Source of the DNA: Rugalucina vietnamica
Lineage: Eukaryota; Mollusca; Bivalvia; Lucinida; Lucinidae
DNA length: 64,000 nt
Direction: 5' to 3'
Assembly: GCA_964017185.1 (NCBI GenBank)
Contig: OZ024871.1
Span: 60,873,226 to 60,937,225 of the forward strand
Positions 5,216 to 47,660 of the stretch are shown one piece after another; the stretch's first letter is position 1; each line of letters opens with the position of its first letter. The translations under genes and the position numbers were made by a program. Below the pieces are notes generated by a model that was not told where the DNA came from, ran no database searches, and worked only from the letters and a program-made list of their open reading frames with translations.

Positions 5216-6507
5216 CCCCTGCGAAAATTAGTTCTTAATTGATGAACTGTTCTTGAACTGCTCTTAAGAGTTCTTAATCTGTTCATAAAGGATTTCAAGA
5301 ACATTTGTACTTGAACTGTTCAAGAACACACTTCAAGAACGGTTCAAAAACTTTTTAAGAACTCCTCAAGTTCGTAAATTGTTCTTCAATAGTTCTTGAA
5401 CATTTTAAGGACTTTTGTTGAACATATTATTGACATAGATGTTCTTGAACTGTTCTTAAATTTGTACTTGAACATTTTAAGGACTTTTCTTGAACATCTT
5501 GTCGATTTAGGCGTTCTTGAACTGTTCTTAAATTTGTTCTTGAGTCATTTCAAAGACTTTTCGTGAACAAGGGTTATAAGGCAAATGTTCTTATTTTGTT
5601 CATAAATTTGTCTGAATGATTCAGAAGGAAGTCATGTGACACCTAGGCATGCTGGGACTTTCCTTTTCTAAATGTCTTCTGCAGAAGAAAGGTCAGATTC
5701 AACAGAAATCTCTATTTAGTAGGTTTTTACTTACGCTTAAGATCTGACTGATAGAGGGAAAATGACAGAAACATGTCAAGAAAATATTTAAGAATTAGGT
5801 TGCTGCTTGTACATGCCTATTGTTTATGTATTGCACTGAAATTCATTTTTGTACCTAATATCCTTACCCCACCCACTTCAAATACATGTAATACACACAC
5901 TTAGCTTGAAAATTGAATATCTTTTGGACCAGTGGGTGGATTTTGACCAAACTTTCTTAGATGCATGGTTAGGAGAGGGGAAAGACTTGATTAGATTTTG
6001 GGGACCGTGACCTAATTTTTAAGGTCACCGGCGGATGAAAAGTGTTCAAATTAGCATTTGTGATGCAACATTTTCAGATCAAATGGATGGTTTCAGACCA
6101 AACTTACACAGAAACATTATTAGGAGGAAACCTAGAGTTGATTAGATTTTGGTGACCGTTAAACCACATTTTCAAGGTCACCAGACTTTTAAATATTTTG
6201 AAATTAGCAGGTAAAGAACAGTTCAAAAACTGGTCCTGAGTAGTTAAAGAAAAAAGATTCTTGAAAAGTTCATGAACTGCTCTGAAAGTGTTCAAGAACA
6301 GTTCAAGTATATTTTAAGAAATGTTAAATTGGACAAATTTTAAGAATGATTATTCTTGAAAAGTTCATGAAAGCTGTCTTTAAGGTCATTTCAAGAATAT
6401 TCTGTCCTTACAAATTTGTCCAATTTAACATCTCTTAAAATGTACTTGAACTGTTCTTGAACAGTGAAAGAACTTTTCATGAACTGTTCCTAAAAATTTC
6501 GCAGGGG
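5216..6507. mobile_element. 1.29-kb TIR element, arms of GTTCTTGAAC words, unique core
   Basis: The termini CCCCTGCGAAA (5216) and TTTCGCAGGGG (6507) are inverted. The left arm (5216-5610) is packed with GTTCTTGAAC/TTCAAGAAC words, as is the right arm (about 6210-6507). The core at 5611-5908 aligns in reverse complement, with about 70-80% identity by eye, to 46965-47264 in another element. The core edge (5611-5624) still reads TCTGAATGATTCAG, which is the arm word of that other copy. A stretch at 5930-6210 holds AGGTCA-type sequence like the 50191 element. The target duplication is not intact: TAA on the left, AAT on the right. No transposase is present. Confidence 0.7.
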
Positions 6508-7149
6508 AATACTAATAAATACAAAAAAACTTGTCCATTAAAACCATCCTACATTGTACCTCTTGGATCAGCGCAAATGATTTTACATACAATCAGATGC
6601 TTCACAGTTCGATATGCGTGACACAAAGCAGAGAATTTATTTAAAATTAAGCATATTTTTGAAATTCTAAAACAAAATAAGACAGTTTGATGCTTGAAAC
6701 ACACTTTATTGATTTAACCATGTTGCATATTTATAACTTTTCTTTATATTTGAAAGATTGATCTAAAATCATGACATGCAGGCAAAATTCATTACAGTGT
6801 ACATGTATATTGTGAGTCAAGTGCAGTCACATAAAATGGAACAACATAAAAATACAGGCCTCTCTACATACTATACTAAAATAATGTTTAAATTCTTACT
6901 TTGCTGCTGCACTAACTCTTTCATAGTACTCAACTCCTTTATATAATATGTATGCCAATCAAACTTAAAATAATACCATCACATTCCCTCCAATATTCAA
7001 ACACAGGAAATGAGTCATTAAATATGTCTGCCAAATCTTGGCTTTTCATTGGATAGATATTTAAATACAATTTGGCTACATGGCAAAAAAACTCACTTTT
7101 ACATATTTTTACGGGTTGAAAATTTTCTAAGTCCACAAATTGTTCATTT
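6508..7149. other. Residual AT-rich part of the 923-9420 element
   Basis: No gene recognised. It lies between the nested 5216-6507 element and the right arm of the surrounding TIR element. The minus-strand open frame at 6939-7136 has no similarity I recognise. Confidence 0.3.
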
Positions 7150-7312
7150 TACAGGCTTGATTTTGTCTATGTTGAAGTTTTGACGTGTTTTGCCAGATGA
7201 AATATCTTTAAGTCCGAGGTTTTACGTGTCAAGACATGTAAAATTATAGTTTTACACTTAAAGACGTGTAAAACTTTACACATTTCGCCAGGTTGGAGGA
7301 TGCTTTTTTTGT

Positions 7313-9301
7313 TAGCTCACCTGAGCCGAAGGCTCACAGGTGAGCTGATAGTATACCCATGCTCCGTCGTCCGTCCGTCCGTCGTCCGTCGTCCGTCCGT
7401 CGTCCGTCGTTCACAATTTCAAAGATCTTCTCCTCTGAAACCGCTGGGCCAATCAAAGCCAAACTTCATGTGGAGCATCCTTAGGAAGGGGGAACGAAAG
7501 TTTATATAAATGGTCCAGGTCACATGACCAAGATGGCCGCCATGGCTATAAATAGAAAAAACCTTTAAAAATCTTCTTCTCCAGAACCAGTGGGCCGATT
7601 TCCACGAAACTTGGTATGTAGCATTTGGGACGCGGGCCCATCATAATTTATATAAATCATGACCCTGGGATGACCTTGACCTATTTTACGGCAAGGTCAA
7701 CTTAGGTCGCCAATGCATTTGAATGGGAAAAAATGGTAAAATGCTATTTAATGGGTAAAACTTACTGGGAATAGGCAAATGGACAGAAGATTAATGTTAA
7801 TAGAAAATTTTAGCCCCTGGGGGATTGTCTGCCCCTGCCCCGGGGCTATATACATGTATATTTCCATAGTAATGAAACATCTTCGCCCCTGAAACCGCTT
7901 GGCCAATCAAAGCCAAACTTCACGTGGAGCATCCTTGGGAAGGGGGAAAGAAAGTTTATATAAATGGTCAAGGTCACATGACCAAGATGGCCGCCATGGC
8001 TATAAATAGAAAAAACCTTTAAAATCTTCTTCTCCAGAACCAAAAGGCTAATGGTATTGAAACTTGGTGTGAAGCATCAGGCAATGGAGCTCTACAAAGT
8101 TTATATAAATCATGACCCTGGGATGACCCTGACCTATTTTATGGCAAGGTCAACATAGGTCGCTCATGCATTTGAATGGGAAAAAGTGTTAAAATGTCAT
8201 TTGTAGGGAACAACTTGCAGGAAATGGGCTTAAGATTGATGATGCTGAAAAAATTTGGACCCCAGGGGTCTGTCTGCCCCCACCCCGGGGCAATATACAT
8301 GTATATTACAGTGATGTTCAAAGATCTTCTTCTCTGAAACCGCTTGGGCAATCAAAGCCAAACTTTATGTGGAGCTTTCTTAGGAAGAGTGAATGAAAGT
8401 TTGTATAAATGGTCAAGGTCACATGACCAAGATGGCCGCCATGGCTATAAATAGCAAAAACCTTTAAAAATCTTCTTCTCCCGTACCAGAAGGCCTATGA
8501 TTTTGAAACTTGGCATGAAGCATCAGGCAATGGAGCTCTACAAAGTTTATATAAATCATGACCTTGGGATGACCTTGACCTTTTTTACAGCAAGGTCAAC
8601 TTAGGCCGCCTATGCATTTGAATGGGAAAAAAATAGGAAAATGTCATTTAATGGCAAAAAACTTGCTAGGAATAAGCAAATGGACAGAATATTCATGTTT
8701 ATGAAAATATTTTGGGCCAGAGAGTTGTCTGCCCCTGCCCCAGGGCTATGTACATGTGTATGACCATAATATTCAAACATCTTCTCTGAAACTGCTTGGC
8801 CAATCAAAGCCAAACTTTATGTGGATCATTCTTAGGAAGAGTGAATGAAAGCTTGTATAAATGGTCAAGGTCACATGACCAAGATGGCCGCCATGGCTAT
8901 AAATAACAAAAACCTTTAAAAATCTTCTTCTCCAGAACCAGAAGGTCTATGATTTTGAAACTTGGCATGAAGCATCAGGCAATGGAGCTCTACAAAGTTT
9001 ATATAAATCATGACCCTGGGATGACCTTGACCTTTTTTTTATGGCAAGCTCAACTTAGGTTGTCTATGCATTTGAATGGGGAAAATTGTTACAATGTCAT
9101 TTGAAGGGCAAAACTTGCAGTAAATTGGCAAATGGACCGAATCTTTATGATTTAAAAAAGAAATTGACTCCAGAGGTTGCTCTGACCCTGCCCTGGGGTT
9201 ATATACATGTATATGGTTATATACATGTATATTGTCATTCTAGTCAAACAAGTTTATCTCAGGTCTCAGGTGAGCGTTTACAGGACCATTGGTCCTCTGG
9301 T
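7313..9301 (+). mobile_element. Helentron-like (HINE) tandem-repeat element, four monomers
   Basis: The head TAGCTCACCTGAGCC pairs with the subterminal CTCAGGTGAGCG near 9266. The tail ends with the hairpin AGGACCATTGGTCCT followed by CTGGT. After a (CCGTCCGT) patch (7360-7412), four monomers of about 450 bp begin near 7429, 7881, 8328 and 8782, judged by the repeated GAAACCGCTTGGCCAATC. Each monomer carries CAAGATGGCCGCCATG and TGACCTTGACC. Flanks on both sides are ACATGTAAA-word arms of the 923-9420 element. Non-autonomous: no Rep or helicase sequence. Confidence 0.75.
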
Positions 9302-9420
9302 TTTACATGGTATGACACGTTTTTACATGTAAAATTCATGCTTTGACATGTATTGACGGGCTCTTTTACACGTCATGCCATGTAAATTGGAATTTTACAT
9401 GTAATTCTGAGGTAAGGGTA

Positions 9421-9775
9421 ACATTAGTTTTTGGGGGGCAGGGGTAATTTTTTGACAAAAAAATTTGATACCAAAAACCAAGATTTTCTTAAGCATTGAG
9501 CGAAATGCATGGTAAAATAATATTTGCAGCATAAAACTATGCTGCAAATGGTCACATTTTGATAAAAACGAGTTAAAATATTTCAATGTTTTTATATTTT
9601 GTCAAATAATTATTTTATCTATAACTTTTGAACATTGCCTGTAAAGCCTATTTCCTACACTGTCATCATTTAGGTGTATCACAAATACATACTGTCTACA
9701 TGAAATTCAAAGTGAATACTCTACATATCTGATAATGATAAATCGACTATCTCTGCTTTAAGGCTAGTATAGTCT
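9421..9775. other. Unassigned spacer
   Basis: I see only AT-rich sequence with homopolymer patches and no supported gene. Confidence 0.3.
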
Positions 9776-11570
9776 GATTTTTTTCAATGTGCAGGGCGGA
9801 GCCTGTCAATTTTTGATTGACAATGACAAAGTTGACCATTACATTTAAAAATAGGTAGTTCTCATTTGGACTGTTACTTTGACCCACTTGTTATTGTTGA
9901 ATCAATCAGTGTCAAAATTAAACCTCATGCACTGAAAATGATGGGTAAACACATACTGTCATAGACAAAATATTCTGTACTACATGACTGTATTTATGTA
10001 TGACCATATTGAAAATTCCCTCAGTAAATGCCTGGTAAACATTCTTGTTGTATGACTCTCTGTTTTGTGTTTCAAGTTTAAAACTTTAATTCTGATACAA
10101 TCATCAAATATCAAATGATGCAGGCTTACTTTAAATTACTAATTTACCAATGAAGGTGGCAGAAAAAGGTGCAATAACTACAGTACGGATCTGTAAAGTG
10201 ATACTGACAGCTCATTAAAGTTAGCAGCGAATCTGTTGCAGCAGCAGCCAAAAAAACAAACGAACAAAATAAAAAACGGTCAAGTTAGCTGCAGCGAAAC
10301 TTTTTGCCACCTATTGTCTATTGTTCATACAGACAAGGCTCCAGAGTATCATCGTCTGTCTTGAAGCTTACACCGATGAGCAAATCACTAAGGTGAGCTA
10401 TGGCACAATTCGGTCTCTCGTTTTCATTTAAGTCTGTCTATGAGCGCTATAAGATGATGAATGTCATCACAAACAGACGTTTTTACCCCACCTATTACCC
10501 AGTCTATGGACACTTTTACTGTTGGCAGGGAACTTTATGGGTGGGATAGAAAAGTCTTGTTTGCAGCATAAGTATTCGTTTTCTATAGCACTCACAGCCA
10601 GAGGAAACTGTAAAAAATCAACAACATTTTCCATAAAGTTGGTAATATGAGGTCTAGAAAAGTTGTGTTGCAGCATTCATCATCATTTTCTACATAGCGA
10701 TCACAGCCAGACGAAAAAGAAAAAAAATAATAAGAAGAACAAAATAATAAAAAAAAGGTGACAAACATTTCCACTTAGAACTTTTCTACATGGAACTTTT
10801 TTCGTAGGTGACGTCGAAAAGATGTGATTGTGACAAAAAATGTCATTTTCTTATGCGTTATCTCCCAGATTAAAGCCAAAACATTCTGCCACAAAAATGT
10901 TTGCTGCAAGCGAAATTGATGGTTACTTGACTGTTTTTGGTTGTAGCAAAATAGCTGCTTACTTGACCAATTTCGCTGCAGCAAAATTGCCGCTAACTTG
11001 ACTGTATTTTGCTGCAGCAAATTCAATTCTAAAGCTGCAAGCAAAATTGCCGTTAACTTGACTGCTTTTGCTGTAGCAAAATTGCTGCTACATGTAACAT
11101 GACCGATTTTGCTGCAGAAAAATTGCTGCTATCTTGACCGTTTTTGATGCAGCAAATTTGCTGCTAATTTGACCGAGCTGACCTTGTAGGAAAAATAAGT
11201 AAAATCAGCTGGTTCTCCGAATCGCTTTATTTTTTCGAATGGTACTTTTATATTGACCTTCTACTGCGGTCATGTACCATCAGTAAAGCAAAGAGTTGAC
11301 AAAAATAGAGGCATTGGCTAACTTGATAGAAATATTTGAGTGTAGCTGTATGGTTATATTTTAAAAACAAAATGTTTATGTTTTTGTGTTTCTACCATAC
11401 ACTTCACCTATTTTGAAATCATTCAGGTGAAACACAGGTATAGCACAAAGACAACAAGCATAGTCACCTTTACTTCAATTATACATTGTCAGCTCTGGGA
11501 CCCTTTCTCAACAATGAAATCATCCAAGGCTGGGCTTAACTAAGCCCTGCCCTGCACATTGAAAAAAATC
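9776..11570. mobile_element. Probable TIR element enclosing a second TIR element
   Basis: A 22-nt exact inverted pair, containing TTTTTTTCAATGTGCAGGGC, occurs at 9776-9797 and, reversed, at about 11548-11570. The enclosed 1.8 kb includes the CTGCAGCAAA-word element at about 10208-11172. No transposase is present. The outer boundaries could extend a little beyond the pair; no target duplication was found. Confidence 0.4.
10208..11172. mobile_element. TIR element with TTTGCTGCAGCAAA-word arms
   Basis: The left end CAGCTCATTAAAGTTAGCAG matches the complement of the right end (CAGCTCGGTCAAATTAGCAG) imperfectly. The right arm (10890-11172) has many TTTTGCTGCAGCAAAATTGC words spaced by AACTTGAC-like linkers; the left arm (10208-10300) has fewer. 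The core at 10490-10790 contains a diverged internal duplication around TCTAGAAAAGT...CACAGCCAGA. The minus-strand frames at 10467-11044 follow this repeat and have no recognised product. Confidence 0.5.
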
Positions 11571-12902: not shown

Positions 12903-13083
12903 AATGAAAACAAATTAACAGGAAATGACATCAACGTCGCATGACGTCAATGACGACGACGTCAAGTAGAAACACATCAGTTGGCGTAAAAAATCAAAAT
13001 AAAGGATCTTTACAGATGCTGATTACAGAGAGATACAGGTGTCATGTAAAAATCACAGAAGTCAGTAAAAACTTTATAATGAC

Positions 13084-13487
13084 TTAATACATAATTTTGG
13101 AATTTAAGCCAAAAGGACACACCGTTCCAAGACGGTGCATCCAGGAAGTCTCCTTCAAAAGCCTTTTCCAATTGCAGGTTACTCTATCAATAGGCATAAA
13201 TGAAAAGTCTTTGATTGAATGTCCTGGTGAATTGAAATGCTCAGAGACTGTTGTAATAATGTCAGAGAAATGTTTTATGTCAAATTTATGTTTGTTCATT
13301 CTTTGACTACATTTTTGCTGAGTTTGTCCAACATATTGTAGGTGACATTTTTTGCATGTAATGAGATAAATTACATCCGATGAAGCGCATGAAAAATTTT
13401 CCCTTACATTGAAAGCAGCAGACGCTGTCGTGCTAGAAAATGAATTTGACTCCACAATGCTTGAACAATGCGAACAACGAGGCCTAT
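13084..13487 (-). pseudogene. GIY-YIG endonuclease domain of the Penelope-like element
   Basis: This frame is shifted by one base from the upstream RT frame and is in effect its C-terminal half. It reads RCSHCSS, then VIYLITCKKCHLQYVGQT: the GIY half is VIYLI, the YIG half QYVGQT, with the CxxC pair (CKKC) between them that Penelope-like endonucleases have. A conserved arginine follows in QRMNKH, and a histidine-rich stretch (EHFNSPGHS) comes later. It ends at LNSKIMY. The domain nicks target DNA for insertion (family knowledge). The domain itself has no internal stop, but separation from RT by the frameshift makes it a pseudogene part. Confidence 0.85.
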
Positions 13488-14302
13488 TACATTTTGAAAC
13501 AACCAGAATTTAATTTTCTGTTCAGCTCAGAATGAACCAACATGTCTTGTAAATTCGTAGGTCTTTTATAAGCCACAATAGGTCTACACTTATACAGTTG
13601 CCTTACACTTTCACTTTTTGAGTATTTTAGGAGATTCCAATACTGATTTATGATACTTCCTATGTTTGGCAATGACGGATTGTAGGTGCATACAAAAGGA
13701 ATGATATCCTGACACTTCGTGGGAGAAGTAGGTTTAAGGGCTTCGTCCATGCTCATCGAGGATACTTTTTTGACAGCCTCCTCAATAACATGTTCGGGAT
13801 AATTACGTGCCAGAAAATACTCCTTCAATCTGCTAAGATCATTTTCAAAATGTGACTCGTCTGATGTAATACGCCTATAACGTTTAGCCTGACTATAGGG
13901 GATACTCTGTTTACATGACAGAGGATGACATGATGAAAATTCAATGTACTGATGACAATTTGTGATTTTTTCATGAACACTTGTTTCAAGTTCACCATTT
14001 TCTTTCATTCTTATATTAACATCTAAGAAGGTAGCTTCTGTCTTAGAATAATTAAAAGTGAATTTTATGGTATCATGAAATTTGTTGATTTTGGAAATGA
14101 AATCTTGTAAGTCTTGTTCACTATGATCCCATATCATAAAAATGTCATCAAGGAAACGCAACCAAATCAAAGGTGTTTTATCACAGGAGTCGAGAAAATC
14201 CATCTCGAGCTTACCCATAAATAAAGAGGCGAAACAAGGAGCCATACGGGTGCCCATTGCATACAAAAACAGAAACATTTGACCAGCATTTATTTTTATC
14301 AA
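13487..14302 (-). pseudogene. Penelope-like reverse transcriptase fragment
   Basis: The 271-residue frame lacks the RT N-terminus; similarity begins just before MGTRMAPCFASLFMG (about residues 16-30), a Penelope-class RT signature. The catalytic motif RFLDDIFMIW follows near residues 48-58 with both aspartates intact. The rest is the palm, thumb and linker up to SELNRKLNSGCFKM. The frame stops at TAA near 13490 because of one extra A in an A-run (13492-13495 on the plus strand). The next frame picks up a CxxC pair (RCSHC) and the endonuclease. The enzyme would copy its own RNA by target-primed synthesis; 5' truncation plus frameshift mean this copy is inactive. Confidence 0.85.
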
Positions 14303-15583
14303 AATCTGAGGCAGCTATACATTATGGCTCCCATTTTGTAACCACCGTCAGAGGTCCTTAATAAAACACACATGAAATCGGAGAAAAATATTAGAAAAAA
14401 ATAGGGGGTGTACTTACAAAATCACTTGTACCATAGCTGTTAACAAACCTCGGATGCTGAAAGAAGTATCAAATGAATGTAATGGCAATATACTATGACC
14501 CTATTGTCTCATACAAGAATGATTATTGATCTGATTTCCAATTTCATTAATTTTAATGAAAACTTAATAAATAGGAATGAAAAAGTGAAAAAATAGACGG
14601 GTAAACCTACAAAATGACTTGTATCTCGGCAACCAAAAGCCCTAACATGCTTAAAATGGCATCAAATGATTGCTGCAATATTATACCATACAATATATAA
14701 GTCATTTGATTTTTTATCTTATGAATATTATCAAAACCTTTCGAAATAAGAGCAAAATTACGGAACACATTAAGGCGGTATACATAGAAAATCACATGTA
14801 TCTTGGCTCCTGATAGACCTAGAGAGCTATATTTGGTATCAAATGATTGTTAGGGCAATGCTCTATAGCATACACTCTGATATTTGAATCATCAGCTTTT
14901 TATGTTTAATAGATATTAATGAGATTTATATAAATAAATGAAGAATCAACGAAAAATGAAGGGGGTATACCATCAATATGGCGTATGTCTCGACTACCAA
15001 TAGCTGTGGAGAACTCAACATGGTAACATCAATAGCTATTACAATGTTTTATTGCCATGCATTCAGATATACAATGCTTGCATGCTGACAACCAAGAGTC
15101 AATAATTCTTTTTTGGCGCACAAGCTTCAATTTTCTTTTAATATTATAATTTTTCAAACTTCTTATTTATTATTCGCAAAATTAAAAAAAATATGGTTAT
15201 GCTATCAGACTGCATGACAGTAGTGCATTATCCAAACATTCTATTGAATCCATTTTCAGCGCTCTAAGGAAATTGGCAGCTGAGATATAAGCCACTTTGT
15301 TGGTATTCTTCTTCATTTTCCGTTGATTTTTCTCTTATTTGTATAAATCTCATTAATATCCATACAACAAAAAAACACTGATGATTTATATATCAGATTA
15401 AATGGTTACAGAACAGTGTCCCAGCAATCATTTGATACCAATTAAAGCTCTCTAGGTCTATCAATAGCCAAGATACATGTGATTTTTTATGTGTTCGTTT
15501 ACTGCCTTATTTTTTCCGTAATTTTGCCTCTCAATTCGAAATGTTTTGTTACAATTCCTAAAAGAAAAAATCAAATGACTTAC

Positions 15584-22320: not shown

Positions 22321-22891
22321 TTTCATAATGTAAACAAGTTTATCTTTGCGGACAAAAATTATTGATATTTCTTGGGTCCAAATGAACGATTTGGCACCCA
22401 TGAAAAAATTGTCCTTGGAGTGCAAGGTACGTCTAATTAGCTCCCGGTGTACCACAGTGTTTCTCAGGTTTTTCAGTATTTCTCCAGGTTTTCATTAATA
22501 TTCATGAATATGCAAAATAGATAATTTGCAAATGTTACCACGAGATGAAAGGGACATATCTGTGCTTTAATTTGATACCACATTCAATGGTTTAAAGCAA
22601 GTACTTGCTGAGATATGATTGATCTTGTATATTTAACATCATTTCGGTGCTATTTAAAAAGGGGGTCATGCCGGGGGTGTTCGTTCGCTTATTTCCAAGT
22701 TATGTACCGTCGGATTTTTCTAAGACTTTGATTTTTGAATTCAGCATACTTTTCTGCTTCAGAATATGCCTTCAAACCTTTTGGCCTCAACAACATGAAT
22801 AAACATATTGCTGGCTCTTGGGCTACTTGATTTGATGGGCTAGCCTTACAGATTGTTTTTGAGCATTTTGACAGCCTGATTTTGACAGCCC

Positions 22892-34600: not shown

Positions 34601-35223
34601 TTTAATGAAACTTGGCGACAGAATATTGATTAGTCTGAAAAAAGAAAATGGCCCAAGGGCTTCATCTGCCCCTGCACTGGGGTTACATACCATAATATTC
34701 AAACATGTTTATTGGTATATGCAGCAGACTCAGGTGAGCGTTTACAGGACCATTGGTCCTCTGGTGTTAAAATGTAATTTCCGGGCTCTATCTTGAGCAT
34801 TTTATTGACCAATTTTCTTCAAAGTTTATGTAGGAGTTCATATCAGGAAAAAGTGGTTAGGGATTGAAGATGCATAAATTTCGTCAAAATAAGTACAGAG
34901 TTATGGCCCTTGATTTACATTAAAATGTCATTTCGGGCTCTATCTTGATTATTTATTGACTTCAAATTTTGTATAGGAGTTCATATCAGGAAGGAGTGGT
35001 TTGGGATTGAAGATTGGTAATTTTTTTCAAATACATACAGAGTTAATGCCCTTGATTTATGTTACAATTTCTTTTCCAGGCTCTATCTTGAGCATCTTTA
35101 GACCAGTTTGCTTCAACCTTTGTATAGGAGTTCATATCACGAAGATGTGGATTGGTATTGTAGATTAATGTCATTAAGATATTCTGTGCATTTGTACTAA
35201 ATTAAATTTGTGTGGCGGGGTAT
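31651..35223 (+). mobile_element. Tandem-repeat element of the ATACCCCGCC family, with nested Helentron-like element
   Basis: The ends ATACCCCGCCACTTG (31651) and GTGTGGCGGGGTAT (35223) are inverted. The head hairpin CCACTTGAAAAAGTGG and a GTCCGTCCATCCGTC patch lead into units of about 180 bp (TTGGGATTGAAGATGGG, GTTATGGCCCTTGATTTACG) at 31780-32470, which resume at 34766-35160 after the insertion 32482-34765. No protein is encoded. It ends only about 50 nt before a splice acceptor of the SLC25A16-like exon. Confidence 0.65.
32482..34765 (+). mobile_element. Helentron-like (HINE) tandem-repeat element, about five monomers
   Basis: Head TAGCTCACCTGAGCC, a (CCGT)n patch (32540-32570) and monomers starting near 32583, 33049, 33517, 33977 and 34426, then subterminal CTCAGGTGAGCG and the terminal hairpin with CTCTGGT. 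The last monomer is shortened (an internal deletion near 34615). It interrupts a unit of the 31651-35223 element between ...CCCTTGTTTT and GTTAAAATG.... Confidence 0.75.
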
Positions 35224-35408: not shown

Positions 35409-35921
35409 GTCAGCAATTACCCTTGTTCAATGTCAATATTAGGTACTCATCAATATAAATTTTTGTAAGGCAAAATAAAAAAAGTGTGCTTTATACCTGA
35501 CTGGCCCTAGCTAGAAGGGTCATACCCTAATTATTTTTTCATAGCGTACACATCTCTTATAAAATTTCTGTGCATTTTTTCTTCCCTGAACCATGAAGTG
35601 GGCATATGGTTGGGCAATAAAGTGTTAGTGATGCTGCAGCTCACTGCAGGGTGTGTGTAATTAGCTGATCATGTCAGATAAAATCTATTTTCATCAATGT
35701 GCAAATCGTTAATATTGTATGTAGAAAACGGATTGAAAATGCAATGCTATTCAAAAGATTCTGATAATTATGAATTTTTACTTTGTTTTCGTCTAAAATG
35801 AACAATTAAATGTTTTGATTTTTATATAGATATATCAATTATCAACAGATAATTAAGCACAAGATAATCATACCAAAATTTGCATAATGACCGCAGTAGC
35901 ACTGGGGGAGTTTATTATTTT
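35409..35921. other. Intron sequence downstream of the SLC25A16-like exon
   Basis: No repeat family or other exon recognised between the donor site and the next Helentron-like element. Confidence 0.4.
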
Positions 35922-38463
35922 TAGCTCACCTGAGCCGTTAGGCTCACAAGGTGAGCTTATAGGATGGCCATGATCCGGCGTCCGTCCGTCCGGCGTCCGT
36001 CCGTCGTCCGTCCGTCGTCCGTCCACAATTTCAAGGATCTTCCTCTCTGAAACCGCTTGGCCAACCAAAGCCAAATTTTATATGAAGCATCTATAGGAAG
36101 GGGGAACCAATGTATATATAAGAAATCCAGGTCACATGACCAAGATGGCCGCCATGCCCATATATGGTAAAAACCCTTCAAAAATCTTCTTCTCCAGAAC
36201 CGGTGGACTGATTTCAACGAAACTTGGCATGAAGCATTGATGGCTCAAGCACTACAATGTGTATATAAATCATGACCCTGTGATGACCTTGACCTATTTT
36301 ACGGCAAGGTCAACATAGGTTGCCAATGCATTTTAATGGGGAAAACTTTTAAAATGTCATTTAAAGTGAAAGTCTTGCAGGAAATGGGCAGTAGGCGAGA
36401 ATATTAATGATTCTGAAAAAAATTGGACCCCAGGGGCTCATATGCCCCCACCCTGGGGCAATATACATGTATATTACCATAATATTCAAACATCATCTCC
36501 TCTGAAACCGGTTGGCCAATCAAAGCCAAATTTTATGTGAAGCATCAATAGGAAGGGGTAATCAATGTATATATAAATAATCCAGGTCACATGACCAAGA
36601 TGGCCGCAATGCCCATATATGGTATAAACCCTTCAAAAATCTTCTTCTCCAGAACCGGTGGATCGATTTCAAAGAAACTTGGCATGAAGTATCGATGGCT
36701 CAAGTACTACAATGTGTATATAAATCATGACCCTGTGATGACCTTGACCTTTTTTACGGCAAGGTCAACATAGGTCGCCAATGCATTTGAATAGGGAAAA
36801 CTTTTAAAATGTCATTTAAAGTGAAAGTCTTGCAGGAAATGGGCAGTAGGACTGAATATTTATGATTCTGAAAAAAATGGACCCCAGGGGCTCATCTGCC
36901 CCCACCCTGGGACAATATACATGTATATTACCATAATATTCAAACATCTTCTCTTCTGAAACCGCTTGGCGAATCAAAGCCAAATTTTATGTGAAGCATC
37001 TATGGAATGGGGGAATTAATGTATATATAAATTATCTAGTTCACATGACCAAGATAGCTGCCATGCCCATATAAGGTAAAAACCCTTCAAAAATCTTCTT
37101 CTCCGAATCTGGTGGACCGATTTCAAAGAAACTTGGCATGAAGCACCAATGGCTGAAGTACTACAATGTGTTTATAAATCATGACCCTGTGGTGACCTTG
37201 ACCTATTTTAGGACAAGGTCAACATAGGTCGCCAATGCATTGGAATGGGGAAATTTTTTAAAAAGTCATTTGAGGTGAAAATCTTGCAGGCAATGGGTAG
37301 TAGGACTAAATATTAATGATTCTGAAAAAAAAATGGACCTAAGGACTCATATGCCCACACCCCGGGGCAATATACATGTATATTACCATAATATTCAAAC
37401 ATCTTCTCCTCTAAAACGACTTGGCCAATTGAAGCCAAATTTTATGTGAAGCATCTATAGGATGGGGGAACCAATGTATATATTAATAATCTAGGTCACA
37501 TGACCAAGATGGCCGCCATGCCCATATATGGTAAGAACCCTTCAAATATCTTCTTCTCTGAAACCAATAGATTGACTTCAATGAAACTTGGCGTGAAGCA
37601 TCCATGGCTATAGTACTACAATGTATATATAAATCATGACCCTGTGATGACCTTGACCAAGTTTATGGCAAGGTCAACATGGGTTGCCCATGCATTTGGA
37701 TGGGAAAAACTGTTAAAATGTCATATGAAGGGAAAAGCCAGCAAGAAATTGGCAAATGGACAGAATATTGATTATTCTGAAAAAGGAAAACGACCCAAGG
37801 GCTTCATCTGCCCCTGCACTGGGGTTAAATACCATAAGGCCTAAAAAAAAAAATGTTATGTTTCCGATTTCATCATAAATTTAGCATAGGGTCGGTAGGT
37901 AGGCTTTTTTTTTTTTCCTTGGAAAATCGGGGTCGGTAGGTATTTTTTTTTTTTTTTTTTTTTTACTAGACTTTCTTCTTACCGCACATTTGACTCCAAA
38001 TCGGAAACCTTTACACAGAGGATGGCCGTCTTCGTATAACAGGGATAACGGGGCATTGTGCCGCAAGGCTTTTATTACATTTGAAGCAGGTATGTGGCTA
38101 CATTTGTCGAAATAAATGGGGACTAATGTGCTTGGTCGTGTCAACACACTACACAGTAGCCATGTTGTTGTTCTTGATCGTAATTGTTAAAGACCGAAAA
38201 TATCCGAAAATCTGCGCGGACAAATTCTCGTAACGAAATGGTTTTGACTTTTGATAAAAACCGGAATCGTTGAACAGGGTCGGTCGCCGACTTTTTTTTT
38301 TTTTTTTTCTGAGCGCTAAAAAAGTTGCAGTCGGCGCAGATTTTGACCAGTCGGTCGGGAAATCGGAAACATAACATTTTTTTTTTAGCCTAATATTCAA
38401 ACATGTTTATTGGTATATGCAGCAGACTCAGGTGAGCGTTTACAGGACCATTGGTCCTCTGGT
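35922..38463 (+). mobile_element. Helentron-like (HINE) tandem-repeat element with a nested TIR insertion
   Basis: Head TAGCTCACCTGAGCC, a long (CCGTCCGTCG) patch (35978-36025) and monomers starting near 36040, 36494, 36949 and 37405, then subterminal CTCAGGTGAGCG and hairpin plus CTCTGGT. It is very close to the elements at 43639-45616 and 32482-34765, sharing single-base variants such as the ACCACCAATGGCTGAAGTAC type in one monomer. The 3' part is split by the element at 37838-38390. Confidence 0.75.
37838..38390. mobile_element. 553-bp TIR element with TAA target duplication
   Basis: The ends GGCCTAAAAAAAAAAATG and (complement) GGCTAAAAAAAAAATG extend through TTATGTTTCCGATTT as an inverted repeat of about 32 nt. 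TAA is duplicated at 37835-37837 and 38391-38393. The empty site CCATAATATTCAAACATG is seen in sister Helentron-like elements (for example near 34690 and 45540), which proves the boundaries. TSD of TWA type and AT-rich TIRs point to a PIF/Harbinger-like non-autonomous element (inference). It has oligo-T runs and no transposase. Confidence 0.8.
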
Positions 38464-39149
38464 ATTACCTAGTAATGTGCACCATCTGTACCCGAGATAC
38501 CTTTCATCTCAGGCAGAGTGAAAGGTATCTCGGGGTCCAAAACAATAAGACGTGAACGCCATGTAATCTTAAGAACAAAAAAAAAAAACAACAACAAAGA
38601 ACAAATAAATAAAAAGATAAACAGGATATTATTGTATCCCAATTCCCAATTTCACGGCTGGTAATGTTGTTAGGGGCAATCAGATGTTAAGCAGGAGCTT
38701 CAGGACATGAGTAACGGGAACAGAACACGAAAAACAACATGTGTCATTTGTTTATGTTTACGCAAATTTCTTTGTTGGAGGTAAATATTCTGAAATCGGG
38801 CAATACTATTCCAAAAAGTATTTATTTCTGCATACTTTTTTTGCGATCGTGGGAGTGAAAAATGCTATTGCATCTCTAAAATTCAGTTTTTCCGGGATGC
38901 AAAGTATGTTGTTTGTTCTGTTTTGAGCTGTTACTGGACATGTTTTGGTGCATTGTCGAAGAGCTAATGTAGACAAACATAATTCATTTGAGCCTTTCAC
39001 TGTATAATGCCTTGTCCAAAGAATTTGCCATAGAAATTCTGCTTAAAAACGTTGCTACAGAAGAAATGGAAAAAAAGTTATGACTTACGACATGACTACC
39101 CCCTACTGGTTACCCCTAACGAGCGGACCTGCGGAAGGGCTATTTTTTT
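38464..39149. other. Unassigned spacer with one strong hairpin
   Basis: It contains a perfect 15-bp stem at 38491-38505 and 38520-38534 (CCCGAGATACCTTTC and its complement, 14-nt loop) and A-rich patches. The short frames at 38741-39000 are not supported as genes. Confidence 0.4.
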
Positions 39150-39399: not shown

Positions 39400-40232
39400 A
39401 AAATGAAATTAAAATTCAAAACTTTAAAAAATTAAATTCAAACTTTTCATATATTTACATGCATGCAACCATTGGAACCTAAATCTAAGGTGTTCTTAAT
39501 TAGAATCAAGTTGGTAAAATTCATGAGATTCTGAATGATAAAACATGAAGTTCTGATAAAATATCCAATTAAGCATGAACAACTGTTCTTTTATTTCAGG
39601 ATATGGCAATTAAACTGTAATTGAATGAAAACAAATGTCAAACTCACAGAACACACATACCAAATGTCACCGAGTAGATGATTTGTAATGTCTGATTCAT
39701 GATTTACAGGATACCAAGCCCTGCCTGTTGATAATAAGGTTTTACATGACAGACTTGTCTGAAGAAAGTTTGATTGTGTGGGCTTAATTGTCCTGTCACA
39801 GTAAAAATGTCTTTCTCCCACTTCGAGTCCAACTTGCCCGGCTGTCTGGGTAGAATCAAGGAGTTTCTGTACCTAGAGTTCGTGCTTCATTATCAGCTTA
39901 TTTAGCACATTTAGTCACATGCTGTGAGCGCAATGTAAGTCAACGGAAAACATCTAATCTGAAGGGTTATTATCATCTAATTAACAATTCCTTTGAACAC
40001 CATGTCCGGCACCGCCTCCAACAGTGAAAATGGATAAAATCGCCTCTTCAGTTTTATAACAGAAAATTACACACGTAAATGCGCACTTGTCACAGCACAA
40101 CGACACTTGCAATAAATTATGCGCACTTGATTATCATTGAAAGAAGATATATAGCTCTACACGATAATCAAGAAATTATTACCAAACAGGTGCCAGTAAT
40201 CTTTAAATCGCTGAAATAAGTAGGTTGTTTAT
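39400..40232 (-). other. 3' non-coding part of the Gypsy element
   Basis: It lies between the polypurine tract and a Helentron-like insertion. No open frame of note. A tandem-free, AT-rich stretch. Confidence 0.4.
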
Positions 40233-41776
40233 TAGCTCACCTGAGCCGTCAGGCTCACAAGGTGAGCTTATAGTATACCCATGCTCCGTCGTCCGTCCGT
40301 CCGTCGTCCGTCCGTCGTCCGTCGTCCGTCCGTCCGTCCGTCGTCCACCATTTTCAAAGATCTTCTCCTCTGAAACCGCTTGGCCAATCAAAGCCAAATT
40401 TTACATGAAGCATCTATGGGAAGGGGGAACCAATGTGTATATAAATAATCCAGGTCACATGACCAAGATGGCCGCCATGCCCATATATGGTAAAAACCCT
40501 TCAAAAATCTTCTTCTCCGGAACCACTGGACCGATTTCAACCAAACTTGGCATGAATCATTAATGGCTCAAGCACTACAATGTGTATATAAATCATGACC
40601 CTATGATGACCTTGACCTATTTTACGACAAGGTCAACATAGGTCGCGAATGCATTTGAATGGGAAAAATTATTAAATTGTCATTTAAAGGAAAAATCTTG
40701 CAGAAAATGAGCAGTAGGACTGAATATTAATGATTCTGAAAAAAATTGGGCACCAGGGGCTCATCCGCCCCCCACCCCGGGGCAATATACATGTATATCT
40801 CCATAATATTCAAACATCTTCTCCTCTGAAACCGCTTGGCCAATCAAAGCGAAATTTTATGTGAAGCATCAATAGGAAGGGGTAACAAATATGTATATAA
40901 AAAATCCAGGTCACATGACCAAGATGGCCGCCATGCCCATATATGGTAAAAACCGTTCAAAAATCTTCTTCTCCAGAACCGGTTGACCGATTTCAACGAA
41001 ACTTGGCACGAAGCATTGATGGCTCAAGCACTAAATGTGTATATAAATCATGACCCTGTGATGACCTTGACCTATTTTACGGGAAGGTCAACATAGGTCA
41101 CCAATGCATTTGAATGGGGAAAACTTTTAAAATGTCATTTAAAGTGAAAGTCTTGCAGGAAATGGGCAGTAGGACTGGATATTAATGATTCTGAAAAAAA
41201 TTGGACCCCAGGGGCTCATGTGCCCCCACCCCGGGGCAATATACATGTATATTTCCATAATATTCAAACGTCTTCTCCTCTGAAACCGCTTGGCCAAACA
41301 AAGCCAAATTTTAAGTGAAGCATCTATAGAATGGGGGAATCAATGTGTATATAAATAATCTAGGTCACATAACCAAGATGGCCGCCATGCCCATATATGG
41401 TAAAAACCCATCAAAAAACATCTTCTCTGAAACCAATAGACTGATTTCAAGGAAACTTGGCGTGAGGCATCGATGGCTAAAGTACTCCAATGTATATATA
41501 AATCATGACCCTGTGATGACCTTGACCAAGTTTATGGCAAGGTCAACATGGGTTGCCTGTGCATCTGAATTGGGAAAACTGTTAAAATGTCATTTGAAGG
41601 AAAAAGCCAACAGGAAATTGGCAAATGGACAGAATATTGAAGATTCTGAAAAAAGAAAATGGCCCAAGGGCTTATCTGCCCCTGCACTGGAGTTAAATAC
41701 CATAATATTCAAACATGTTTATTGGTATATGCAGCTGATCTCAGGTGAGCGTTTACAGGACCATTGGTCCTCTGGT
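40233..41776 (+). mobile_element. Helentron-like (HINE) tandem-repeat element, three monomers, inside the Gypsy element
   Basis: Head TAGCTCACCTGAGCC, a long CCGTCCGTCG patch (40290-40345), monomers starting near 40363, 40819 and 41273, subterminal CTCAGGTGAGCG and hairpin plus CTCTGGT. The open frames across it (40225-40563, 41345-41803) are the same repeat translation seen in every copy and are not genes. Confidence 0.75.
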
Positions 41777-43332
41777 TTTATTTGCATCATCAAATTTATT
41801 TAATTCCTAATTTACAAAATGTTCCGAAGGTTTCCTAAATTTTAAAACCATATGTTAAAAAGGGAAATTTTCGCAGCTTTCGTGTAAGCTAAGCAGCAAT
41901 ATGTCCAAAATTATCCGAAAGTGTGTTTTGAAGGGTCAAAAAGAAGCAAGAGGTTTTCCTATGAGAGCGACCCTAAAGCGCATTACAATATTAAAGTCTA
42001 CATTTCAAAGTTCCGTGAGTACACTTCCTTTGCGTCTTCATTGTTTTTCGCATCAGCAACTTACGTAAATGGGAATAGATCTAACTGTATTCATTTTAAT
42101 ATTAAATAAGTTTTTTTTATTTTGAAACCAATGGAATTTAAAAATCCAGTATCAGAGATATTTGTGCTGTGCCAAGACAACAATTTAAAGCTCATTACAG
42201 CTTGCCCATGCTCATTGATGCATATGCTACAGTATTTCGTACATGTTTACCTAACAGGCAAGACAAGTAAAAGTAGGCAATGATCAGAAAATGGCACATT
42301 CAGAAAGAAATTCCCACTCCAAAAACCAAGGCGGGGAAAAAAATAAATAAAAACTTATACGGAGAAAACATGGTTAGCCGGAGAAAAACATATCGTAAGC
42401 CGAGTGAAGGAATACATTGTCAGCAGTTTTTGTTACATAGTCAAATCTTAAATAATCTCATTTCGTTCTATTCAAACACAAAACATGCAAACATATAAAA
42501 AAAATTCTGTGAAGTGGTTCTAATGTGTACCCACAATCTATGTTTTGAGAAAATTTGAGAGAAAAAAATGCTTAAAATATCATTTTTTCGCATGAAATTT
42601 TCATTTTTACAGATGAAAAAATCTCAGTACATGTATATTGCATGGTTTTCGTAATGAAAAGTTGTTTGTTCCACTTCTCCTCTCCCCACCCCCACATACA
42701 AAAAAGTATTATTGATATTAATCGTGTGTCAAGGTGAAAGTATTTTAGCCTTTTTACGATTTCTTACATAGACGAGGTATAGTTGGAAAGTTCCCGGTCC
42801 AAATACGATGGAACTTTTGAAATAAAGCCCATCCATTTTCCTTAGTTTGCGGATAAATTTAGTAAAATTTTGCAAGAATTGTTTAAAAAATGTCGATTGA
42901 CATACGGCATATAGAAGGGTTCGGAGCACTTTGGAAAATCTCTCATTCAGATGTTTTTGATGTTTTGAAACTTTGTCAGTTCAGTCATTAAACGGCGCCA
43001 CAACGGCATGAATTTTTGCATGATGTCATATTAACATTTGTTTTGATGCAAGTACAAAGAATCAGAACATGAAATTTACAATTTTGACATCTTTTCTAAG
43101 ACAAACATGGATAATTTTTCGAGCGTAAAAACGCAGACGTTGTTGAAACGTACGGAGCAGCGCGCTGTAGTCAAGCATCATATAAGAGCAGGTGAGACCC
43201 CTACAAACACTTAGAAATTTGTGAAACATATGGATAGTGTATAGAAATCGTTTAATTAATTTACCCGTGAATACTATATTATTTAAAAAAAAAAACATGG
43301 AACCTTTGATGCGGTGAAGCACGATCTCCATG
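41777..43332. other. Unassigned stretch within the Gypsy 3' region
   Basis: Between the integrase end and the nested element I see no conserved coding. The minus-strand frames 42729-42929 and 43062-43331 are not recognised. A GTACCCACAATCTATG piece near 42526 resembles the inverted repeat at 57999-58061. It may include another unrecognised insertion. Confidence 0.3.
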
Positions 43333-43638
43333 TCTTGAAACTCCTTGGTAGAATTAATACTTTCTGTTCCAGACGGTAGCGTCTATAATCCTTCGCCAAT
43401 CGTCTACCCGCGTACTTTTTCATGATTGCCTTTTGTCTCACGTCTGTTTCTCAAAGATTTCTCGGGGCACTTCCCTTATCAACTGAAGGAAGTTTAGTAC
43501 GTATTTCCCTTTGGAAATGTAATGAACTCGGGGACTTGTCTGTGGTACAACTAGGGGTTGCTCTAAAAGCTAGGAGGAACTTGTGTATTTCAATTTTCCA
43601 GTCCTTTCCTGCTAAGCATGCTGCTTGAATTGCCTTTT
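43333..43638 (-). pseudogene. Gypsy integrase C-terminal part
   Basis: The minus-strand reading continues the integrase from the far side of a Helentron-like insertion: after the AAAAGGC junction come IQAACLAGKDWKIEIHKFLL, AFRATP, CTTDKSP and REIRTKLP, all usual in Ty3/Gypsy integrases, then a stop and a frame change, and a KKYAD...VLIL stretch of the C-terminal domain. In-frame stops show it is dead. Confidence 0.75.
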
Positions 43639-45616
43639 TAGCTCACCTGAGCCGTTAGGCTCACAAGGTGAGCTTATAGGATGGCCATGATCTGGCGTCC
43701 GTCCGTCTGTCGTCCGTCCGTCCGTCCGTCGTCCGTCCGTCGTCCGTCCACAATTTCAAAGATCTTCTTCTCTGAAACCGCTTGGCCAATCAAAGCCAAA
43801 TTTTATATGAAGCATCTATAGGAAGGGGGAACCAATGTGTATATAAGAAATCCAGGTCACATGACCAAGATGGCCGCCATGCCCATATATGGTAAAAACC
43901 CTTCAAAAATCTTCTTCTCCAGAACCGGTGGAATCATTTCAACGAAACTTGGCATGAAGCATTGATGGCTCAAGCACTACAATGTATATATAAATCATGA
44001 CCCTGTGATGATCTTGACCTATTTTACGACAAGGTCAACATAGGTTGCCAATGCATTTTAATGGGGAAAACTTTTAAAATGTCATTTAAAGTGAAAGTCT
44101 TGCAGGAAATGGGCAGTAGGAGAGAATATTAATGATTCTGAAAAAAATTGGACCCCAGGGGCTCATATGCCCCCACCCTGGGGCAATATACATGTATATT
44201 ACCATAATATTCAAACATCATCTCCTCTGAAACCGGTTGGCCAATCAAAGCCAAATTTTATGTGAAGCATCAATAGGAAGGGGTAATCAATGTGTATATA
44301 AATAATCCAGGTCACATGACAAAGATGGCCGCAATGCCCATATATGGTAAAAACCCTTCAAAAATCTTCTTCTCCAGAACCGGTGGATCGATTTCAAAGA
44401 AACTTGGCATGAAGTATCGATGGCTCAAGTACTACAATGTATATATAAATCATGACCCTGTGATGACCTTGACCTTTTTTACGGCAAGGTCAACATAGGT
44501 CGCCAATGCATTTGAATAGGGAAAACTTTTAAAATGTCATTTAAAGTGAAAGTCTTGCAGGAAATGGGCAGTAGGACTGAATATTAATGATTCCAGGGGC
44601 TCATCTGCCCCCACCCCGGGACAATATACATGTACTATATTACCATAATATTCAAACATCTTCTCCTCTGAAACCGCTTGGCGAATCAAAGCCAAATTTT
44701 ATGTGAAGCATCTATGGAATGGGGGAATTAATGTATATATAAATTATCTAGTTCACATGACCAAGATGGCTGCCATGCCCATATAAGGTAAAAACCCTTC
44801 AAAAATCTTCTTCTCTGAATCTGGTGGACTGATTTCAAAGAAACTTGGCATGAAGCACCAATGGCTGAAGTACTACAATGTGTATATAAATCATGACCCT
44901 GTGGTGACCTTGACCTATTTTAGGACAAGGTCAACATAGGTCGCCAATGCATTGGAATGGGGAAAACTTTTAAAAAGTCATTTGAGGTGAAAATCTTGCA
45001 GGCAATGGGTAGTAGGACTAAATATTAATGATTCTGAAAAAAAAATGGACCTAAGGACTCATATGCCCACACCCCGGGGCAATATACATGTATATTACCA
45101 TAATATTCAAACATCTTCTCCTCTAAAACCACTTGGCCAATTGACCAAATTTTATGTGAAGCATCTATAGGATGGGGGAACCAATGTATATATTAATAAT
45201 CTAGGTCACATGACCAAGATGGCCGCCATGCCCATATATGGTAAGAACCCTTCAAATATCTTCTTCTCTGAAACCAATAGATTGACTTCAATGAAACTTG
45301 GCGTGAAGCATCCATGGCTATAGTCTACAATGTATATATAAATCATGACCCTGTGATGACCTTGACCAAGTTTATGGCAAGGTCAACATGGGTTGTCCAT
45401 GCATTTGGATGGGAAAAACTGTTAAAATGTCATATGAAGGGAAAAGCCAGCAAGAAATTTGCAAATGGACAGAATATTGATTATTCTGAAAAAAGAAAAC
45501 GACCCAAGGGCTTCATCTGCCCCTGCACTGGGGTTAAATACCATAATATTCAAACATGTTTATTGGTATATGCAGCAGACTCAGGTGAGCGTTTACAGGA
45601 CCATTGGTCCTCTGGT
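43639..45616 (+). mobile_element. Helentron-like (HINE) tandem-repeat element inside the Gypsy integrase
   Basis: Head TAGCTCACCTGAGCC, long (CCGT)n patch (43698-43748), monomers near 43765, 44219, 44664 and 45118, tail with CTCAGGTGAGCG, hairpin and CTCTGGT. The host reading frame on either side gives the site to within a base or two: the flanks are a T-run (...GCCTTTTT) and TCAGAG..., consistent with insertion between two T, as known for Helentrons. Confidence 0.8.
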
Positions 45617-46380
45617 TCAGAGTTTTGTTGAAGTTTTCAACTAGGCCATTTGCACAAGCCCAGTATGGAGTAACTCTACGATGTTATATCCCGTGTTCTG
45701 ATAGGAAAGTTTCTATTGCTTTTGACACGAACGCTTTGCCGTTGTCTGAGATAATTTCCTTTACGTAACCATGGGTACTGAAGATTTTTATCAGTTTATT
45801 GATGATCGACTTCTAGGCAATGTGAGTAATAGTCCATTATTACTAAACAATAGTATCCTCCCTTAAAAGTTCCTTTCAAATCAATACCGATTTTCTCCCA
45901 TGGCCCTTTCGGAGTTCAGTCGGTTGTACTGGTGGTGGTCTTTCTGGATTTGCTAGTCTCTGGCAGATAGAGCAGTTTGATATCAGTCTTTCGACGTCAT
46001 TACACATTCCTGCCCACCATACCTTTTCTCGTAACAAGGCTTTAGAGCGGTATTTCATGTAATATAGACGATACGCGTGCCTGTAATTTACAAGGTATTA
46101 CTAGCTTGCTGCCTCTGAGAATCAGATTACCTTGTACAGATAATTCACTTCATACTTTGAAGTATTGAGTTAACGTTTTGTCACGTTCAGTATAGTTATC
46201 TGTTTCTATGTATTGTCTTATTTTCTTGAACAGTTCATCCTTTGATGATTCATTTTCTATTTCTTCGAGTGTCATTGCTTTTGGCACCAAATTTTCTGCA
46301 CAATAGTTTATGTACAGTTCTGCATCACTGCTTAAAGTGTCGTTTGTACATGTATCGTCCTGATTTGGAGATCTGGATAA
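45617..46380 (-). pseudogene. Gypsy integrase N-terminal and core part
   Basis: The zinc-binding (HHCC) region is seen as LLREKVWWAGMCNDVERL then ISNCSICQRLANPERPPP (45876-46058), with the two cysteines intact but the two histidines upstream degraded. The catalytic core follows in shifted frames, with a DLKGTFKGGYY stretch carrying the first acidic residue, and it ends near GLVENFNKTL just before the Helentron-like insertion. Several stops and frameshifts occur. It belongs to the same element as the parts at 43333-43638 and 47690-48690. Confidence 0.75.
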
Positions 46381-47660
46381 CCCTCATGAAAATTTGGTGT
46401 CTGAATCCTGTCTGAATTTGTGTAATTTTTTTCTGGAAATCTGCTGAAAAAAAGTCTGAATCGGTCTGGAATTAGTTATAATTGCTTTTCTTAATATCTG
46501 CTGAAATTGGGACTATCCAGAAAAGATTCAGACAATTGAAGAACTGGTTCAGATATTTGATACATAAATAATAAGCACTATTCAGTCATTGTCAGAACAA
46601 ATGTAGAAACAATCAGATATTTTCAGAACAAATTCAGTGCGTAATTCAGAAAGGTTCAGCCAGCTTAATCATTCTGAATTTAATCTAAATATTTCTGAAT
46701 ACTGCTTTTCTTAATATCTGCTGAATTTGGGACAATTAAGGAAAGATTCAGACATTTTGCAGAACTGGTTCAGATTCTTGAACCAACACTGAATATTTCT
46801 GAAATGTTAATCTGAACTTGTCTGATGGCTGAATCCCCCCCCCCCCCCAATTTAACTCAAACTTTACTTTATATACCCATTATAATTATTTCATCAGTCA
46901 TAATCAGCTTCAGGAAGTGACAGTTCCCATAAATTTTTAGATTGATCCTGGTTGATCACGTCTCTCAAGCCAAAAATGAGTGTGTAACATGTATTTTGTA
47001 GTGGGTGGGGTAATGATATTTAACTTTAAAGGTGAATTTCAGGGCAACACATGAATAATAGACTTATACAAGCATCCATTTAGTTCTTAATATTTTCTTG
47101 CATGTTTCAGTCATCTTTCCTCATCATTCAATTTCTTTAAATTAAGTAAAACTTACTTCATAGAAATTTCTGTTGAGTTTGACCTTTTTGTTCTGCAGAC
47201 AACTTTGAAAAAGGAAATTCCCAGCATGCATAGAAGTCACATGACTTCCTGCTGAATTATTCAGAAAGATTCAGACAAATGCAGACAGAAATATTCAAAA
47301 GGATATGATTCAGACATATCCAGACCATTCAGAAAGATTCAGATTTTATTTCATATAAGAACTCATACTAATTTGGTTCAGAAAGATTCAGTTCATTATG
47401 AGGTTCAGAAAGATTATAAGACCATACAATAGATTCATAAAGATTCAGACAATTCAGAATATTTCAGCCTGATTTCAGATTCTGAATCTTTCTGAATATC
47501 TATCAGAGCATGTCCAGTCATGGTTCAGAAACAATAAGACAAAAGGATTTAGTGTTCAGATGGAATCAGACAATAATTTAGTGTTAAGCCAAACTTCAGT
47601 ACTAAATAAGATAACTTCAGCCAAGTTAATAAACTATTCAGAAAATTAAGTTCATGAGGG
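46381..47660. mobile_element. 1.28-kb TIR element, arms of CAGAAAGATTCAG words, TAA duplication
   Basis: The ends CCCTCATGAA and TTCATGAGGG are inverted and flanked by TAA on both sides (46378-46380 and 47661-47663), a PIF/Harbinger-type target duplication. The arms repeat TCTGAATC/TTCTGAAT on the left and CAGAAAGATTCAGA on the right. The core 46965-47264 is the reverse-complement relative of the core of the 5216-6507 element, though arm words and terminal sequence differ. It contains a short C-run (46837-46848). It interrupts the Gypsy element between integrase and RNase H. No transposase. Confidence 0.8.

Follow-up and report, generated by a model that had tools for sequence, protein, structure and literature searches.

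We analysed a stretch of 64,000 nucleotides from the genome of the bivalve Rugalucina vietnamica (GCA_964017185.1, contig OZ024871.1, forward-strand positions 60,873,226 to 60,937,225; hereafter the window), which holds two short elements with CCC tips, A and B (Table 1). Element A is a chimera: its tips and arms are of the type seen in one family of elements, D, and its interior is of the type seen in another, C. One left junction is common to 25 of its genome copies, small changes aside, and the copies have spread, mostly with 2-bp target duplications. It is very likely that this chimera arose once, from D-type tips and arms and a C-type interior, and was multiplied later.

A first, sequence-only reading of the window had placed A at 5216-6507 and B at 46381-47660, and both elements are present at these ends. 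The ends of A are exact, with an inverted tip match of 11/11 and AA on either side; the tips of B are CCCTCATGAA, with TAA flanking both sides. The core that the two elements were said to share in opposite orientation aligned between 5605-5902 and 46974-47271 (minus strand), 6-9 bases away from the coordinates first given, with 240 of 303 columns identical, 10 gaps and an E value of 2e-64, so that a chance match is excluded. The best A-B match after the core had an E value of 0.058. The arm words differ as described, being of the GTTCTTGAAC type in A and the TTCAGAAAGATTCAG type in B. The tips differ as well, but both start with CCC, and the near-equal length of the two elements, though correct, is coincidental (the A copy L022 measures ~1440 bp). 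One sequence quoted for A actually reads AAGAAAATATTTAAGAA, with one extra T.

The window's own assembly (1,089,854,562 bases) was searched with both cores, and 40 of 158 candidates were scored for the A core and 40 of 155 for the B core. The top 26 A-core matches are A-type. The remaining 14 all scored 373 bits and matched the first 283 bases only; four loci among them were read (L027, L028 = L059, L060, and L061) and all belong to family C. Matches of the B core stood at 97-100%, and the 30 copies fetched are B; in 29 of them, the window's own set aside, identity over the longest aligned piece was 94.9-98.4%. Between the consensus cores of the families, conservation is not evenly spread but clustered, with 215 of 303 columns invariant (60 copies; permutation p 0.002), and the conserved blocks include GGAAGTCATGTGACT and GCATGCTGGGA. 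We take these blocks to recall the promoter motifs ETS, E-box, and ZNF143, a likeness that the explanation given here does not need. The core motif occurred 0 times in viral contigs.

Family C is based on four distinct loci, three with both ends and two in the duplication test described below. Its elements are ~2.1-2.2 kb long, with the left tip CCCTCATGAA as in B, the right tip CCATAAGGG, and arms made of arrays of TCTGAATC and its inverse, which are B-type words. C holds positions 396-969 of A, that is, the core and the adjoining GACC units (the next ~300 bp), and its left word array continues into TCTGAATGATTCAG. The scrap at the core edge of A, recognised in the sequence-only reading as a word of the second family, is the end of this C array. 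A middle part of ~780 bp, left of the core, is absent from A and B.

Family D came from a search with the left-tip pattern of A (at most one mismatch), which returned 29 places against 0 for the reversed control. Nineteen belong to the A list, and nine of the ten others were read (C15:40395362 was left out). Four of these, L062, L063, L064, and L069, carry the left arm of A at ~87% and the right arm of A around an unrelated interior of ~800 bp; nested insertions interrupt a D copy at L065 and an A copy at L066, and L074 is a nested D copy. L068 has an A-type left arm followed by other sequence, and L067 has a similar tip with a different word, GTTCATGAAC. D is based on L062-L065, L069, and L074. 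The D interior gave 15 matches from 14 candidates, nine of them nearly whole blocks and six pieces; those read were L062, L063, L064, and L069 and the two nested D elements L074 and L065+L075. The genome copies with mixed arms that the sequence-only reading had proposed to collect are families C and D: C has B-type words round the A core and D has A arms without the core, which bears out the claim that arms and core have separate histories.

When one representative of each family (A as L022) was compared by BLAST at a cut-off of E 1e-3, A matched D in the arms only (A 1-410 and 997-1440) and C at 396-969 only, and D matched neither C nor B. Both ends of A belong to one family and its interior to another. 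The left arm (A 1-396) is 87.7% identical to that of L062, and A 396-969 aligned with C at 81-83%. Mean identities were taken over 26 A, 30 B, and 4 C cores and over 25 A and 6 D left arms. The cores averaged 0.895 between A and C (104 pairs), 0.80 between A and B, and 0.797 between B and C, and the left arms of A and D averaged 0.876 (150 pairs). The A-C core and the A-D left arm are close in identity, and a single exchange would give such similar values. For a single A copy, identity was 0.888 in the core (vs. C), 0.893 in the left arm, and 0.92 in the right arm. The left junction is alike in 25 of the 26 A-type loci (L021 left out), bar point changes and small indels, which argues for one founding event followed by transposition. 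At this junction the D word TTGTTCTTGAAT resembles the C word TGTCTGAAT. On the right, the change between interior and arm falls between A 969 and 999.

The direction of the exchange has to be weighed against the reverse order, in which A is ancestral and the core sat first in GTTC-armed elements, of which A is one, and was then taken over by C and B. Within-family core identity is lowest in A (0.952, vs. 0.987 in B and 1.0 in the four C), and A may represent an older radiation. However, the CTGAAT-type array that runs unbroken up to the core in C is represented in A by one word at the core edge, and two of the families that have the core are CTGAAT-armed, against one that is GTTC-armed. The interior of A therefore probably came from a CTGAAT-armed element, and we consider A-first unlikely. 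The greater divergence of the A cores suggests that the exchange is old relative to the present B and C bursts.

The arm words fall into two dyad types. TTC-NN-GAA occurs 17 times in the A arms (0.6 in shuffles) and 29 times in the D arms (0.9), 0 times in the A interior and twice in the D interior (0.5). TTC-N-GAA occurs 13 times in the B arms (0.7) and 15 times in the C arms (1.7), and is absent from the A and D arms. The B and C arms hold 21 (1.8) and 61 (3.5) copies of CTGAAT, respectively, and 2 (0.7) and 0 copies of TTC-NN-GAA; positions 690-830 of B and short edges were assigned to neither arm nor core. Word arrays fill the arms in both orientations, and the interiors are almost without words. 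The heat-shock element is nTTCnnGAAn, and TTC-NN-GAA is a heat-shock dyad. The strong enrichment of this dyad in the A and D arms would suit words that are host regulatory sites, such as heat-shock elements, and not transposition sites. We regard this as quite unlikely, however: like CACTA subterminal repeats, the words lie in both end arms, facing either way, and hardly occur in the interiors, and the 1-bp spacer in B and C is unfit for a heat-shock dyad. TNPA-like proteins bind the subterminal repeats of plant CACTA elements, and within a single genome these repeats have diverged from subfamily to subfamily whereas the tips have been conserved (PMC2613891). By analogy, the arm words are probably binding sites of the transposition system, and the arms would decide which system moves the element.

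An arm at L067:62-320 (G000:C6:27452610-27454500), with the tip CCCCTGTGAAAATTAGTTC and the perfect-palindrome word GTTCATGAAC, has a word family close to that of A and D. It carries 7 TTCATGAA dyads in 259 bases (0.1 expected); in this single arm, the only one we class as E, TTC-NN-GAA is in large excess and TTC-N-GAA is absent. As a tentative generalisation, dyad words might define the transposition system, the passenger block might change allegiance between arm sets, and a change of spacer (TTC-NN-GAA/TTC-N-GAA) might yield word families. If this is true, the CCC-tip elements of this genome consist of two separable modules, recognition arms and a passenger block.

The sequence-only reading had suggested that arms are replaced or rapidly rewritten. 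A gradual rewriting, in which slippage and gene conversion altered the arms word by word and families exchanged nothing, would agree with B and C, which have the same word and cores that are ~80% alike but outer arms that hardly align, and with words that differ by small steps (TTC-N-GAA vs. TTC-NN-GAA). For A it fails: the alignment of its arms with the D arms extends over ~400 bp at ~87% and takes in the tip, and arm gives way to interior at a sharp border that 25 copies have in common. As a general account, gradual rewriting is very unlikely; for B vs. C it may still be true, and over longer times arms may be rewritten faster than the core, as the barely alignable B and C arms suggest. That the core block is a mobile insertion which landed independently in unrelated elements is least probable of all. 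In its favour, three families have the core, and a motif pair from it, with 25 specified bases, was matched 149 times when one mismatch was allowed (0 for the reversed control). The A junctions, however, show no inverted ends and no duplication of the core's own, the sign that the sequence-only reading had named as telling against its interpretation, and the whole D interior and last arm words are missing from A and not split by the core. L078, a core with a variant spacer, and L079, an A-type core without a listed tip, proved to be a C-type and an A-type copy, respectively, both cut by other repeats; the sites covered were 100 of the 149, with the surroundings read for some of them.

The class of the elements was assessed from tips, target duplications, and arms. 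The tips of A, B, C, and D all begin with CCC. Duplications were scored in 57 copies with both ends and flanks, with expectations from re-dealt flanks; loci lacking an end were dropped (A 5/26, B 2/30, and C 1/3). A 2-bp duplication was present in 41 of the 57 (5.4 expected), namely in A 16/21, B 17/28, C 2/2, and D 6/6. Four copies had a 3-bp match (1.1 expected), one of which is also a 2-bp match, and 3 of 28 B copies, the window's included, have a 3-bp instead of a 2-bp match. Matches of 4 to 9 bp were absent (0/57). The window's two copies had first pointed to a TAA or 8-bp duplication, which this family-wide test rules out, together with the 7-bp duplication of Galileo-type P superfamily elements and the 8-bp duplication of Ds (hAT), each 0/57. 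PIF/Harbinger and Tc1/mariner elements make a fixed TWA or TA duplication, and they are ruled out because the duplicated dinucleotides are not fixed (AA, TA, AG, CT, AT, TT, TC, TG, CA, and GT among A and D copies). Animal CACTA elements are marked by this combination of CCC tips and a 2-bp duplication (PMC1636069). Subterminal arrays of short words in both orientations, a criterion that itself comes from plant CACTA elements, are also present. A, B, C, and D are thus classed as non-autonomous elements of the CACTA (EnSpm/TRC) kind on their structure, and not on a transposase. The sequence-only reading saw in A and B a reversal of normal element evolution, in which ends are conserved. This is not supported, as the four families keep the CCC start, most copies keep the 2-bp duplication, and the left arms of A and D are about as similar as the cores of A and C.

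Candidate autonomous partners were sought by transposase family and by tips. PF02992 (CACTA transposase family) gave 15 matches in the genome among 21 scored, eight with equal score and a ninth close to it; PF06869 gave 9 of 11 scored, none above the cut-off and all at PF02992 loci. In the five of the 15 PF02992 loci inspected, the A, B, and C tips were not at the borders and the word arrays were absent, which is why CACTA membership rests on structure. L071 has one CCCTCATGAA, inside the reading frame, and a CCC-tip-like pair 7.1 kb apart without a matching duplication. Short matches to the middle part of C were seen in L072 (36 bp) and L073 (92 bp). L073 also has clusters of AAAGTCAC words, inverted and direct, at 6826-7153 and 7608-7670, in the same 8 kb as its Transposase_21 match. 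L070 and L077 (G000:C4) both hold a Transposase_21 frame of 901 residues and do not differ at any of the 9501 bases compared, a stretch that stops short of their ends; they are either a long, very young element or a duplication. Tip searches returned 29 places for A/D-type left tips, 39 for A/D-type right tips, and 199 matches for B tips and C left tips, some tips being matched twice; of the last, the first 100 were covered, through contig C8. Three long tip-to-tip pairs, but not the shorter B pairs of 1.8 and 2.8 kb, were read as autonomous candidates and proved to be two D elements and one B element with nested insertions.

The chimeric origin of A can be pictured as follows. Each element would carry a passenger interior between two recognition modules, in which the CCC tip is joined to an array of dyad words to which the transposition machinery binds. 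The tips and word arms of A would derive from a GTTC-armed element, with D as a living relative, and its interior, core and GACC units, from a CTGAAT-armed element, with C as a living relative. A GTTC-armed element may have excised, and repair of the gap from a sister copy may have switched to a CTGAAT-armed template and back. Template switching would have taken place in or beside the words, with the left switch point where TTGTTCTTGAAT (D) and TGTCTGAAT (C) read alike. Given that an exchange occurred, the chance that gap repair was its route is about even; alternatively, the interior could have been overwritten in an ectopic conversion tract. With its new arms, the old interior would then have come to be moved by another transposition system.

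Several points weigh against this picture. No autonomous element with these tips was found in the searches described, so that a switch to a different transposase through the arm exchange, which the sequence-only reading had also raised, is plausible but inferred. In one A-C pair the GACC part is less similar (0.824) than the core (0.888), and the interior may not have been transferred as one block or may have been altered later. In 13 of the 57 copies, duplications of 2 bp and of 3 bp are both missing. D is a relative and need not be the actual parent, and the binding-site role of the words is drawn by analogy.

Table 1. Features of elements A and B in the window
Feature	Position	Strand	Basis
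Element A, non-autonomous, CCC tip, GTTC-word arms	5216..6507	+	Tip match; 25 further A-type copies
A left 2-bp target duplication, AA	5214..5215	.	Read off sequence; family test
A right 2-bp target duplication, AA	6508..6509	.	Read off sequence; family test
A left arm: tip CCCCTGCGAAAATTAG, TTC-NN-GAA dyad words	5216..5604	+	Homologous to D arm; dyad counts
TCTGAATGATTCAG, C/B-type word-array remnant at A left junction	5611..5624	+	Same in C copies, where it ends the array
A core, common to B and C	5611..5902	+	Mean identity A-B 0.80, A-C 0.895
Two diverged GACC...AAGGTCACC units, remaining imported interior	5903..6210	+	Present in C; no B match
A right arm: TTC-NN-GAA words, tip AATTTCGCAGGGG	6214..6507	+	Homologous to D right arm
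Element B, non-autonomous, CCC tip, CTGAAT-word arms, minus-strand core	46381..47660	-	30 copies including the window's
B left flank TAA	46378..46380	.	Read off sequence
B right flank TAA	47661..47663	.	Read off sequence
B core	46974..47271	-	Alignment to A core
CTGAATAATTCAG word at B core edge, counterpart of A 5611-5624	47252..47264	-	
B arm beside GGAAGTCATGTGAC core edge: TTCAG/CTGAA words, tip CCCTCATGAACTTAA	47273..47660	-	
Second B arm: TTCAG/CTGAA words, tip CCCTCATGAAAATTTGG	46381..46826	-	

Other repeats were noticed along the way. The GACC...AAGGTCAC unit of the A interior (5903-6210) is found again at window 50291-50403, adjoining a tandem array, and may be a dispersed module itself. 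An array of TTTTGCTGCAGCAAAATTGCTGC words in both orientations at window 10890-11180 is possibly another word-armed repeat. In L079, from base 934 (minus-strand reading), the A copy is cut by sequence rich in the words TCGCGAA, TTCGC, and CGTGCGA, maybe another such element, in which none of the dyads counted in the arms was found. Open frames at window 56635-60529 encode a QRICH1-like domain and, in addition, a phage-integrase domain together with DUF3504, an arrangement that we take to be that of a Crypton-like element. A reverse transcriptase beside a GIY-YIG frame at 13084-14314 (RVT_1 score below the cut-off) is presumably Penelope-like, and an RT_RNaseH_2 fragment lies at 47848-48321. 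An Rfam scan of the window gave 0 matches. Dispersed arrays of a ~455-bp unit occupy window 7306-9302, 20787-22333, 32472-34616, 35915-37837, 40225-41782, 43631-45618, 50427-51351, and 52105-52651, and a 3' segment common to many of them is also found near 1035-1079 and 38391-38467. They recall the satellite-carrying Helentrons of oysters (PMC7492417).

Families A, C, and D make up a natural experiment, with the same interior under two arm sets, relatives of both parents extant, and a sharp left junction. Such elements, able to exchange parts and perhaps to switch the mobilising enzyme, allow one to ask which part of a CACTA-type element determines its mover, and how often non-autonomous families arise by exchange vs. 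internal deletion. The similar divergence of arm and core offers a route to dating the exchange.

Among known systems, SmTRC1 and other animal CACTA/TRC elements are similar in their CCC tips and 2-bp duplication (PMC1636069), but differ from the elements described here, in which we recognised no coding sequence and for which the searches yielded no autonomous partner. The soybean CACTA elements Tgm1 and Tgmt* likewise form two subterminal-repeat subfamilies in one genome, with conserved tips and diverged words; they are plant elements with CACTA tips and a 3-bp duplication, and in the part of that report available no interior exchange is described (PMC2613891). The sequence-only reading had considered a new mode of change, but chimeric architecture is already known from other transposons. 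Maize Ds2 has Ac ends round unrelated filler, so that ends with subterminal words are kept and the interior is replaced (PMC3260210). It makes 8-bp duplications (PMC3260210), however, whereas the filler of A derives from another CCC-tip element. In Galileo of Drosophila mojavensis, end repeats of three subfamilies have been found around one central region; the arms are long and internally repeated, and an exchange among copies has been proposed (PMC3573991). Galileo belongs to the P superfamily, with 7-bp duplications, and the two sets of ends compared there are still 77% alike (PMC3573991); in contrast, the A/D and B/C arm sets do not match each other, and the elements are CACTA-like in structure. 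Among the papers listed by our searches of an open-access library, we saw no report of such an exchange between CACTA-like families. What is new in comparison with these systems is that parts were exchanged between CACTA-like families with non-matching arms and different word dyads, and that the product then spread.

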